Shown here in pieces: positions 9,905 to 38,386 of a DNA stretch of 64,000 bases. Source of the DNA: Astropecten irregularis. Taxonomy: Eukaryota > Echinodermata > Asteroidea > Paxillosida > Astropectinidae. Under the pieces are notes generated by a model. That model was given only the letters and a program-made list of their open reading frames with translations. It was not told the origin of the DNA and ran no database searches. Each line of letters starts with the position of its first letter. The first letter of the stretch is position 1. A program made the translations under genes and the position numbers. The DNA is taken from assembly GCA_963971285.1 (NCBI GenBank), contig OZ020251.1:1054001-1118000 (forward strand). The letters are read 5' to 3'.

Positions 9905-12900
9905 ATGGCGTCCAACAGCGCAGATGACAGTATATCGAATAAAATAGTCTTCCTGTACAACCCCGACAACGATAAACAGAAGTTTAAAGAAATCAAAGAT
10001 CATCTAGAAGACCCAGCAAAGGAAAGGGGCTTTGAAATATGTTCCTACGACAACATTCCACCTGGACGTTACATAACCACTGGCCTCTATGAACTTATCA
10101 GGCAGGGATGCATCATAGTCATGATTATGACTAAAAATTTCATCGAAGATAGTCATAAAGTCTACGAGAGTGCACTAGCCATACAGACATACATTAAGAA
10201 TGGGTGCAAGTACCTTATTCTTATCAAATACGATGACTGTGCGGACATCCCAGGTCCTCTGGGAGTTTTTAATGACATTGATGGATCAGAGTGTGCTAAA
10301 CACATCGCTGATAGAATTCTGGAAACAGTCGACGACCATAACGAGGTATGTCGTCACTACAGTTGATAGAACTTTCCAAATAATAACGGTTTATTTATAT
10401 TGGTGGTTGCAAACTTAACTGCAACTGAAATCATCGTGTGCCGTGAATTCATGTCATGTCATGTGTTGCTCTTATTTATTCGGGTTCAAACCACTGGTAA
10501 TCAATACTGCATCTGAACACCAGAGGTTTTGATAAAAGCATCCTCATTTAACACATTTTTTCTATACCGCACATAGTATAAAGTTCAGAATTGTAGCCTA
10601 TTGAACCATGCAGGTAGAAAAAGAGTTTACAAGTATATAACACCACTGACTCAGAACAACTAATTTGTTGGTTTTAATTCAATAATGTCAATAATGTGTT
10701 ACGAATTACGAATACGACCAAGGTAAATTACGTATGAGTGAACAAAGTAAAATTCATTTACATGTATGTGAAAAATTTGTGTCAACTGTCAACTTTGTAA
10801 GGCACTTGGAGGACAAAGTGTCGATATATAGGCCTAGGCCTATCCTCAGTATTTCATTTCTTAAACATTAATGTCCACAACCACTGGGGCTTTTTGATTC
10901 TGAACACAAACACATTTTCTTAATGATTGTTTTTGGGTATTTTTTTTTTTGTATTTTTGTTTCAGAAGAATACTTCCTCTTCTGTGGAGAATACTTCCTC
11001 TTCTGTGAAGAATACTTCCTCTTCTGTGAAGAATACTTCCTCTTCTGTGGATGGTGATCAGCTTGAATTTTTCCAAAACTTTGATCTGTACAAAGCCAAA
11101 AAGGACACACTAATAGAAGAGGCTGCATCTGCTCTGATCGATCGCTATGATCTTGACAACAAAATGGAGAAACTTCACACGAAAATGGAACACAAGGTCA
11201 GGAAGAGATTACAGGAACGAAGAAATGACCCGGTTCCCGAGTCTGACGGTGATAAGCATTGCCCATGTAGCCAGGGTGAACTGTGGAAAAAGGAGATTTC
11301 CAAGGAAAAGTATTGGGCTATAGGAGAAAACGGACTAAAGAAACCAGACCAGTTCCGGAATATTGGCACATGTCCTGTTGAGAAGCACACTCTTGAGATT
11401 CATAAACTTTACAACACACCTAACGGATACCTAAAACTTGCATCAGTGTTTCTGACCAAACGACCACCTGACAAATCAAACAGTAATAACACTAACAGCC
11501 TATCTAAATACATGGACGCTGAAGGAATACTGCTTCTCCTGTTGAGATGTAACATTGGCCCATCAGATGCTGACAGGAAGAAGATACAAGAAGTAAGTTA
11601 GTAAAGGCCTATAGGTCTTTCAGGCATGGTTTGGTGTTCAAAAAAAACGCAACACTATAAACTGTCGGGAACCATTTTGTTAAAATAACTGTTAATTATC
11701 ACTTCTAGATTCAGCTATATAATACATGTCTTGGCTTTCACCATGTAGAATTTAAGCAAAATCGGGCTGGAATTAGCGAAAATATGACCAATTGAAAGAG
11801 TACTTTTTAAAATCAAATTTGCAGTATTCTAGAATAAGTGGTCAATACACACATAATGTGTATTGAAAGAAAGATGGAAATCGGGTTTTGAGGTTGGGAA
11901 ATTCTGTCTTAGTTTTTCCCTTAATTTCAGTCCAACTTTGCTCAAATTCTACATGATGATAGCCAATACATTGCTGTATCACATATCTGAATCCTGAAGT
12001 GATAAACAGTTTAATTTTCATATAATAGTTCTCGACACAAAGTGTTGCGTTTTCTGGGACACCCTGTATAATAAATATTAGGAAATGGTTGTGTATTTCT
12101 TTTTTTTCTTTTTTTTTTGTGGGGGGGGGGGGGGGTCTGAATAGACAAATTATCTAATGGGAAGTATCGACCCCATTAACTGCAAGGCACTTGACACCGA
12201 ATACCCTGAAATTTCCTCCCATAACCATTTTTATGTTACTAATTTTGTTGAAATAAAAAATGATGTATTTTATTTTCCACCTGTCTGACAGTTGAAGAAC
12301 CTGCGCAACGATGTGGCTCATTCTAAGCTCGTGAGCCCAAAATGCAGCAAAGAAATGATCCAAGAATTGGGGGAAAATATTAAAAACGCCATGGACCGTG
12401 ACAACTATAAACAATTCTGCGCCAAAATTGATCAGGTAGAGTCTTCTATAATAAATTCATTATTTTCCAAAAACCAAACCAAAACAGTCGTATAAATTAG
12501 GCTTTTTACTTCATCATTGACTGACTTGCTGTGCCATTTATAAATTTAATGAATTGCATACTGTTGAGCTCAGTACAATACAGGATTAGTAACATACCAA
12601 AACAGAAATGTTCACAGATTTACGTATAACATTCAGGATATGAAGATGCATGGTGCTGGTAGAAACATACAGTGAAAATATTTCCGCCGGAAATGCATGG
12701 TGTATTTATCCAGCAATCAGTAAAACAAAGACCGAAAACAGTTTTGATCTCGGGGTAAGATCAAAACCTATCTTTATGTTTTATAAGAAAAATTGAGTCG
12801 TGTTTTCACTATTTTCTCGTGACTCAGATGTCCGATTTAGCTCAAAGGTTTATTATTTCATGTACATGTTTGATTAGACAAAGTGCCAGTGTTGTTCTGT

Positions 12901-13519
12901 GACCTATACCAATCATACCTTTAAATGTAGCATCATACTTTGTTTTTGTCAAAGAAATACAGATTCATGGGCAAAAATATCAAGGAAGATACAGCATCTG
13001 TGAAAATTCCAGTCCCATACAATGCCCACGTTTTGAGAAAACAGTGAAAAGGCCACAGTATTTCTTAAGTCTTTTCTCTTTAATTTTTTATCTTTTAAAA
13101 GGTCAAAAAGATGTTCGGTCCTTGTTTTACTCTTTTCTGGATAAATACACCATTTCAGGCGGAAACATTTCAACAGTATGTTTCTACTACCACCATCTTC
13201 ATACCCTGTAAATTATACGTAAATCTGTGAACATTTCTGTTTGGTGTCTTACCAAAGTATGATACTACCTTTAACTAAACTCTGAGTAATTTTGATTGTG
13301 TCTCCACAGATGGTGAGGGCGGATTTGACACCGACTATTCCGCCTGAAAGCGAGGCTAGTGTAACAACACAACCCACTCAATCTACCAGTAGGCCTACTG
13401 TCATGCCAAATATTCTGAGTAAATCCTCAGACACTGAAAACAAGTCAAGTATTATTACAGGTGTATATACTGGACTCAATGTTTGTGTAAACTATTTCCT
13501 TTGGTCATACACTATGTAA
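9905..13519 (+). CDS. TIR-HEPN fusion protein, gene A (four exons, 473 aa)
   Basis: Exons 9905-10345, 10966-11592, 12292-12435 and 13310-13519 join in phase 0 at GT/AG sites (donors gtatgt, gtaagt, gtagag). The ATG has a good context (cacaATGG).

Exon 1 is TIR-like: strand KIVFLY (13-18), a BB-loop-like SYDNIPPG (47-54), strand CIIVMIMT (69-76) and a helix with Glu88 where TLRs have the WCxxE glutamate and NAD-cleaving TIRs their catalytic one. Exon 2 opens with a Ser/Thr linker, then a region with CPC, GELWKKE, YWAIGENG and IHKLYN, and a helix ending LLLLLRCNIG. Exon 3 has LRNDVAHS, the R-x4-H HEPN motif (Arg361, His366).

The domain order suggests an innate immune sensor or effector; no function is proven. 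Exon 4 has lost the codons that end the protein in gene C, so the tail runs on for extra residues. Domain names rest on motif reading. Confidence 0.8.
10346..10965 (+). other. Intron 1 of gene A
   Basis: 620 bp, AT-rich, donor gtatgt, acceptor tttttgtttcag. It is very similar to intron 1 of genes B and C over much of its length, in contrast to the divergent exons on either side. No other feature is seen. Confidence 0.7.
10966..11049 (+). repeat. 21-bp coding minisatellite, four copies, in exon 2 of gene A
   Basis: Four tandem 21-bp units directly after the splice acceptor encode four heptads of the form (K/E)NTSSSV, a Ser/Thr-rich linker between the TIR and HEPN parts. Gene C has only one unit (KNTSSS) at this place. 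In gene B the equivalent bases do not appear in the predicted exon. Copy number therefore differs among paralogues and keeps the frame. Confidence 0.9.
11593..12291 (+). other. Intron 2 of gene A, containing a mariner-like insertion
   Basis: The donor gtaagt follows codons for Gln-Glu and the acceptor is ctgtctgacag. Nearly all of the extra length over intron 2 of gene B is the element at 11640-12070. A G-run at 12120-12135 recurs with altered length in gene C. Confidence 0.7.
11640..12070. mobile_element. Tc1/mariner-like non-autonomous element in intron 2
   Basis: The right end reads GTTGCGTTTTCTGGGACACC followed by CTGTATA, resembling mariner-type termini. The left end has the inverse AACGCAACACT but looks truncated. 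It is absent from genes B and C, so it is a recent insertion. No transposase frame is seen. Confidence 0.5.
12925..13270. mobile_element. TTAA-flanked MITE in intron 3 of gene A
   Basis: Orthologous to the copy at 286-633. TTAA is on both sides (12921-12924 and 13271-13274). It ends 39 bp before exon 4, so the branch-point region of the intron lies close to its edge. Confidence 0.7.
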
Positions 13520-38200: not shown

Positions 38201-38386
38201 TTTACCAATCAGTATTACACCCGAACTAAACTCTGAGTAATTTTGATTGTGTCTCCACAGATGGTGAATGCGGATTTGACACTGACTCTTCCGCCTGAAG
38301 GCGAGGCTAGTGTAACAATACAACCTACTCAATCTACCAGTACTGACGTCATGCCAAATATTCAGGATCTGGACTTGACTGAGTAA
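35274..38386 (+). CDS. TIR-HEPN fusion protein, gene C (four exons, 430 aa)
   Basis: Exons 35274-35711, 36384-36956, 37561-37716 and 38261-38386 join in phase 0 (donors gtaggc, gtaagt, gtagag). The frame is also open upstream to 35070, but the ATG at 35274 has the good context shared with A and B (acaATGG).

TIR features: KIVFLY (13-18), SYDDIIPG (46-53), SIIVMIVT (68-75) and Glu87 at the conserved helix position. HEPN features: CPCSQGELW, YWAIGENG, IHKLYN and LRNDTAH (Arg342, His347). Exon 2 carries only one linker unit and has a more divergent stretch before exon 3 (TRCKPMIDIG in place of LRCNIG).

The 41-residue tail ends DLDLTE and probably shows the ancestral C-terminus, because copy 0 and gene A have lost parts of it by small indels. 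The gene converges on the complete reductase gene, about 3.8 kb away. Confidence 0.8.
35712..36383 (+). other. Intron 1 of gene C
   Basis: About 670 bp. It is similar to intron 1 of A and B but carries a private insert (about 35915-36050) with GACGCACC repeated in both orientations. No other feature is seen. Confidence 0.6.

Follow-up and report, generated by a model that had tools for sequence, protein, structure and literature searches.

We analysed a 64,000-nucleotide window of Astropecten irregularis DNA (contig OZ020251.1, positions 1,054,001-1,118,000; all coordinates below are those of the window) that holds a tandem family of animal genes joining a TIR domain to a C-terminal part resembling HEPN domains. 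The window is AT-rich, with a G+C content of 0.35-0.45, and its genes are interrupted by introns. Comparison of the window with itself revealed long direct repeats spaced 11-14 kb apart, forming an array of at least four units. Units 1-3 each carry one four-exon gene on the + strand (copy 1, 9905-13519; copy 2, 21715-24061; copy 3, 35274-38386), while unit 0 is cut by the left end of the window so that exon 4 alone lies inside it. A tblastn search of the window with the exon 1-3 products found no copies beyond these three. The exons are as follows.

673-729, + strand: unit 0 exon 4, in which a 2-base insertion terminates the frame; the remaining gene would precede the window
9905-10345, + strand: copy 1 exon 1, TIR domain, 147 codons (PF01582, expect value (E) 1.9e-6; donor GTATGT directly after GAG)
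10966-11592, + strand: copy 1 exon 2, HEPN-like part 1, with a helical start, CxC, GELWKKEI and GYLKLASVFL (acceptor TTTCAG, donor GTAAGT; relative, P0001)
12292-12435, + strand: copy 1 exon 3, HEPN-like part 2, LRNDVAH
13310-13519, + strand: copy 1 exon 4, tail, frameshifted relative to copy 3
21715-22161, + strand: copy 2 exon 1, TIR domain (PF01582, E 7.1e-5)
22759-23280, + strand: copy 2 exon 2, HEPN-like part 1 (the acceptor may be 22759 or 22774; the ancestral site, 22721, is out of frame)
23549-23704, + strand: copy 2 exon 3, LRNDVAH
23933-24061, + strand: copy 2 exon 4, hydrophobic/basic tail in a frame other than that of copy 3
35274-35711, + strand: copy 3 exon 1, TIR domain (PF01582, E 5.1e-5; structure model)
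36384-36956, + strand: copy 3 exon 2, HEPN-like part 1
37561-37716, + strand: copy 3 exon 3, LRNDTAH
38261-38386, + strand: copy 3 exon 4, an acidic tail ending in the stop codon

The limits given in an initial annotation of this DNA, from the copy 1 ATG at 9905 to the end of the copy 3 stop at 38386, are exact. Its description of a three-copy family of complete four-exon genes needs amendment: the three + strand genes stand, with GT..AG introns (9 of 9) and phase 0 junctions, but the array extends to at least four units, copy 2 is in phase only if its exon 2 acceptor is shifted, and exon 4 is unconserved. At the ancestral acceptor position (22721) copy 2 exon 2 runs into a stop, and it is open from an AG at 22759 or 22774. 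Exon 4 is disrupted by the insertion in unit 0 and by a frame-shifting deletion in copy 1, and is read in a different frame in copy 2, so we take exons 1-3 as the conserved protein. The GT donor of exon 1 is in phase with exon 2 in all three copies. The first ATG of copy 1 exon 2 is at 11164, with none upstream of its core, and possible ATGs lie close to the start of this exon in copies 2 and 3 (22738 and 36402). If exon 1 were left unspliced, translation would reach a stop after 6 to 8 more codons in each copy, which makes a TIR-only form possible.

Across exons 1-3 the copies share 60-64% of their amino acids, with a mean nonsynonymous divergence (dN) of 0.24 and a mean synonymous divergence (dS) of 0.21. 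The reading frame is thus maintained though the protein sequence is unconserved (dN close to dS). Gaps between copies are multiples of three in 25 of 26 cases within exons and in 25 of 91 within introns and the 5' flank (Fisher p 1e-10), and the lone non-triplet exon gap reflects which acceptor is chosen for copy 2. No premature stops were seen in exons 1-3 (counted in copy 2 with its alternative exon 2 acceptor), where a simple neutral simulation expects 5.4 per lineage and gives a lineage a probability of 0.004 of having none. These two observations argue against the array being made up, in part or in full, of decaying duplicates. Such decay would account for the similar dN and dS, for the frameshifts of exon 4 in unit 0 and copy 1 and for the lost frame at the ancestral copy 2 acceptor, and we regard it as very improbable.

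Exon 1 encodes a real TIR domain. The Pfam TIR model PF01582 scores 28.2, 23.1 and 23.6 bits in copies 1, 2 and 3, respectively, above its gathering threshold of 21.3 bits in each case. A structure model of the copy 3 domain adopts a flavodoxin-like TIR fold whose fold matches include MyD88, TIRAP and SPARTA TIRs, in a list where entries less than 1 Z apart count as ties and no family is excluded. The BB-loop-like SYD-x-x-PG and the conserved helix glutamate (YE) are found in all three copies, so that the TIR assignment and its motifs stand as the initial annotation had them. A PADLOC scan of the TIR exons gave no match.

Exons 2 and 3 encode 226-257 residues. Invariant between copies are CxC, GELWKK, RNI, HTxxIHKLY and GYLKLASVFL, followed in exon 3 by LRND(V/T)AH. 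The R-N-D-(V/T)-A-H motif, intact in 3 of 3 copies as first annotated, fits the definition of the HEPN motif as Rx4-6H with a polar residue following the arginine (PMC3710099; here and below, papers are cited for the excerpts consulted), and it is invariant even though 30-38% of the amino acids of exons 2 and 3 differ between copies. Each copy retains both the TIR glutamate and the arginine and histidine of this motif. A first protein search scored 7988 candidates and returned no relative with an E of 1 or less, and further searches gave a sole match, P0001 (163 residues, from a 928-base contig). It is a relative of exon 2 that ends at the same exon border and retains CxC, WKK, RNI, HT..IH and GYLKLASVFL. 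CxC and HTxxIH are invariant in all four sequences, and the CxC...HTxxIH arrangement may bind zinc at a predicted metal site. No related loci were found among viral and prokaryotic contig collections, an absence that says little given the make-up of those collections.

Profile searches give this part sub-threshold matches to HEPN domains. In Pfam scans, which were listed to E 10 although few matches above about 0.1 survive the HMMER filters, copies 1 and 2 match HEPN_MAE_28990, Swt1 and RiboL-PSP, all below threshold. CARF-HEPN proteins in PADLOC match copy 2 at about 0.001, alongside one non-HEPN match, JetB, while NCBIfam gave weak matches only, far under the cut-off. Several HEPN models align at one common place, and full shuffles match a HEPN model in 0 of 4 cases. 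P0001, which is without exon 3, has no HEPN match. We consider it likely that exons 2-3 form a HEPN domain. The HEPN half of the initial annotation is plausible in view of the invariant RNDxAH and of sub-threshold matches in two of three products, but no match attains a gathering score and the signal depends on the motif. The proposed resemblance to the DZIP3-type HEPN was rejected: PF18738 is listed in no Pfam scan of these proteins, and the evidence leans to the CXorf38/Swt1 type instead. An RGS match to copy 1 exon 2 (E 2.2e-4; 22.0 bits against a cut-off of 23.9; one of three copies) was taken as chance.

CXorf38 belongs to a Swt1-like HEPN group and has an inserted Zn ribbon and an active motif (PMC3710099), a layout that the CxC...H...H ahead of RNDxAH would suit. 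The stretch ahead of the motif reads C..C..WKREI in CXorf38 and CxC...WKKEI in the array proteins. A single stretch of copy 2 matches the corresponding family, PF15112 (DUF4559), at E 0.045 (13.7 bits against a gathering threshold of 27). For direct comparison we used a human CXorf38 sequence that was confirmed as a full DUF4559 member (E 5.7e-78). This protein itself matches HEPN_MAE_28990 at just 0.048, so sub-threshold HEPN matches are what would be expected of a true member of the CXorf38 group. A profile of exons 2-3 was built from four sequences, copies 1-3 and P0001, the last covering exon 2 alone. It gives CXorf38 a score of 10.0 bits, aligned around DRKK(I/V)...RN...H. This score was reached, by a narrow margin, in none of 2000 plain shuffles (best 9.4) and none of 2000 motif-keeping shuffles (best 8.9); a repeat with 4000 shuffles, of which 3072 were scored, again gave none as high (best 8.1; tail-fit p 4.7e-5). 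On these sequence comparisons, the chances that exons 2-3 are of the CXorf38 type appear about even.

The units of the array have not diverged evenly. When units 1 and 3 were compared in bins of 300 bases, identity was 93-100% in all but one of the 17 flanking bins and 89% in the remaining one. The bin ending at 9936, just beyond the start codon, is 94% identical; past it, the seven bins that hold exons 1-3 fall to 76, 86, 86, 88, 66, 71 and 89%, and the bins of 37-55% are those of introns 2 and 3 and exon 4. Between copies 1 and 3, exon 1 has a dS of 0.21 against a distance of 0.06 in the 5' flank; the divergence is thus shared by synonymous sites and is not amino acid change alone. In all three unit pairs the gene lies inside a diverged block and the spacers are mostly 94-100% identical, although only in units 1 and 3 is the block confined to the gene. 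We discarded the notion that every copy begins to diverge at its start codon, as this is true of units 1 and 3 alone. The gene-bearing blocks look old and distinct, and the spacers look recently copied or homogenised, a combination that we infer to be common in immune gene clusters.

Taken together, we read the array, tentatively and with somewhat less than even confidence, as a diverging tandem family of intracellular animal immune proteins that begin with a TIR domain and end in a HEPN-like domain, the latter probably all-helical and most like CXorf38/Swt1. The gene structure, the TIR domain, the invariant RNDxAH, the maintained frame and the diverged gene block are shown directly. Most likely, upon infection, the TIR domain would enter a TIR-TIR assembly, either Toll/MyD88-like or by self-assembly. 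This would bring the HEPN-like domains together as dimers, and the dimers would then cleave RNA by analogy with RNase L, which cuts RNA upon dimerisation. A number of observations weigh against this reading. No HEPN profile reaches its gathering threshold (best 21.0 against 26.8 bits), copy 3 matches no HEPN model in the Pfam scans, and PF15112 is unlisted in the other Pfam scans of the copies. Substituting the arginine and histidine abolished every HEPN match (1 of 1), showing that the match depends on the motif. When the 12-residue motif was preserved and the rest shuffled, two of five sequences gave a HEPN match, at 0.0016 to 0.019, and natural pieces of copies 1 and 2 match MAE_28990 at 0.00041 to 0.0027, barely better than these shuffles. 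Where exon 3 is lacking, pieces of exon 2 have no Pfam match in any of 4 sequences, and a structure model of the unspliced frame has helices in exons 2-3 with a predicted local distance difference test (pLDDT) value of 33.8, that is, no confident fold. For the CXorf38 type, the narrowness of the shuffle margin counts in the same direction, as does a negative hhalign comparison (nothing found, probability 0.1). The CXorf38 comparison also loses its strength when exon 2 is used by itself (p 0.13, or 0.02 when compared with the pre-motif part) and likewise for exon 3 (p 0.09), although the need for both exons supports the exon 2-3 splice. As for the gene cluster, in both pairs involving unit 2 the diverged block extends well past the gene, spanning roughly 8.1-14.1 kb in the coordinates of unit 1, and its flanks can scarcely be aligned; the copy 2 5' flank is as distant (0.26-0.31) as exon 1 (0.25-0.29). 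We make no claim of positive selection, since dN exceeds dS non-significantly, with bootstrap intervals of dN-dS that include zero.

Several of these points, namely the motif-keeping shuffles, the unmatched exon 2 pieces, the hhalign result and the silence of copy 3, are what would be expected if a TIR adaptor had been joined to an unrelated helical domain in which RNDxAH is coincidental. We consider this unlikely: the motif does not vary among copies despite the amino acid differences around it, several HEPN models converge on one place, and the p value of the CXorf38 comparison is obtained across the splice junction.

A bolder version of the immune reading, which we hold to be rather less probable than its general form, is that these genes encode a coupled animal TIR-HEPN effector in which Toll-type assembly activates a ribonuclease (RNase) on the same chain. 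Under this version, the cluster, with its old divergent gene blocks and homogenised spacers, would resemble polymorphic self/non-self or resistance-gene clusters.

The roles of the two domains could also be reversed, with the TIR acting as the enzyme, either cleaving NAD or producing a nucleotide signal, while the HEPN-like domain would sense or bind RNA and thereby cluster the TIRs. Sequence searches of solved structures speak against this arrangement, as TIRAP, MyD88 and TLRs were ranked first and SARM1 was not among the structures listed for exon 1; in addition, the preservation of RNDxAH amid changing surroundings suggests an active RNase site and not mere binding. We judge it unlikely. 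Finally, the retention of both sets of key residues in all three copies would suit a protein in which both domains are active effectors, cleaving NAD and RNA in a two-shot abortive defence. The same structure matches disfavour this idea, and TLR TIRs have a glutamate at the same position yet are not known to act as NADases. As the TIR is nearest by sequence to TIRAP and MyD88, and TLR TIRs carry this residue too, its retention is no proof of NADase activity, and we find the two-effector arrangement improbable.

Most animal TIR domains that are known serve as adaptors whose pathways end in transcription. The TIRs of MyD88, TIRAP and TLRs are nearest to those of the array by sequence and among the nearest by fold, and have the BB-loop Pro-Gly in common with them. 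MyD88 carries a death domain beside its TIR, and in the array proteins a HEPN-like domain takes that place. In the oyster TIR-STING protein (6wt7), unlike the array proteins, the partner of the TIR is STING. A Thiorhodococcus protein combines a DUF4145-type HEPN, a TIR and an ATPase, and so shares with the array the presence of TIR and HEPN in one protein, but it is bacterial, its HEPN belongs to another family and it has the ATPase (PMC3710099). Animal HEPN domains accompany NACHT, death or similar modules, and those of the CXorf38 type are fused to dsRBD, NACHT, ankyrin, CARD and DEATH (PMC3710099); TIR is absent from the partners given in that source, whereas the array proteins are joined to a TIR and have a longer insert. 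In the clam Corbicula, DUF4559 occurs in 45 of 99 NLRP proteins (PMC8298618). The DZIP3/hRUL138-type HEPN (PF18738) has in common with the array proteins an Rx4H with N after R. This type is expanded in invertebrate immune loci (PMC9646362) and partnered with TPR, Zn-ribbon, RING, ankyrin, CARD, NACHT, DEATH and LRR (PMC3710099). We found no description of an animal TIR-HEPN protein in the literature consulted, which included the excerpted PMC3710099, PMC8195603, PMC8260672, PMC9334734, PMC9646362, PMC10236652, PMC8298618 and PMC9503650 and left subscription papers and preprints outside its scope, and we provisionally regard the architecture as novel in animals. If the proposed coupling is true, TIR assembly would be tied to RNA cleavage in one step, resembling bacterial defence proteins. 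The diverged gene block amid near-identical spacers would also make the cluster suitable for studying diversification of the immune type.

The units carry other features besides the TIR genes. Pieces similar to an exon of NADH-cytochrome b5 reductase lie on the - strand, one per unit, at 5103-4855, 16634-16329, 31211-30930 and 44090-43905 (Pfam NAD_binding_1, E 2.3e-5; PDB match, E 2e-6), so a second gene or its remnants would have been duplicated along with the array. A 108-residue open frame on the + strand (5993-6316, 17438-17761 and 31752-32075; no Pfam match) encodes a protein 99-100% identical among three units, against differences of 36-40% between the TIR gene products; it need not be a gene, because the surrounding DNA is itself 99-100% identical. 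A 76-base minisatellite is present in about 6, 34 and 13 copies at 4015-4492, 27909-30504 and 42432-43442, respectively. A dispersed repeat of about 360 bases, resembling a short mobile element, occurs in both orientations (285-640, 2637-2273, 12927-13277, 15290-14929, 26408-26047, 24666-25001 and 40915-40543), and one instance is immediately 5' of copy 1 exon 4. Further along the window, an open frame at 60950-61405 (+ strand; no Pfam match) has long hydrophobic stretches and is possibly an exon of a membrane protein, and transfer RNA matches from Rfam lie on the + strand at 53459-53534 (47.1 bits) and 59338-59414 (32.8 bits).

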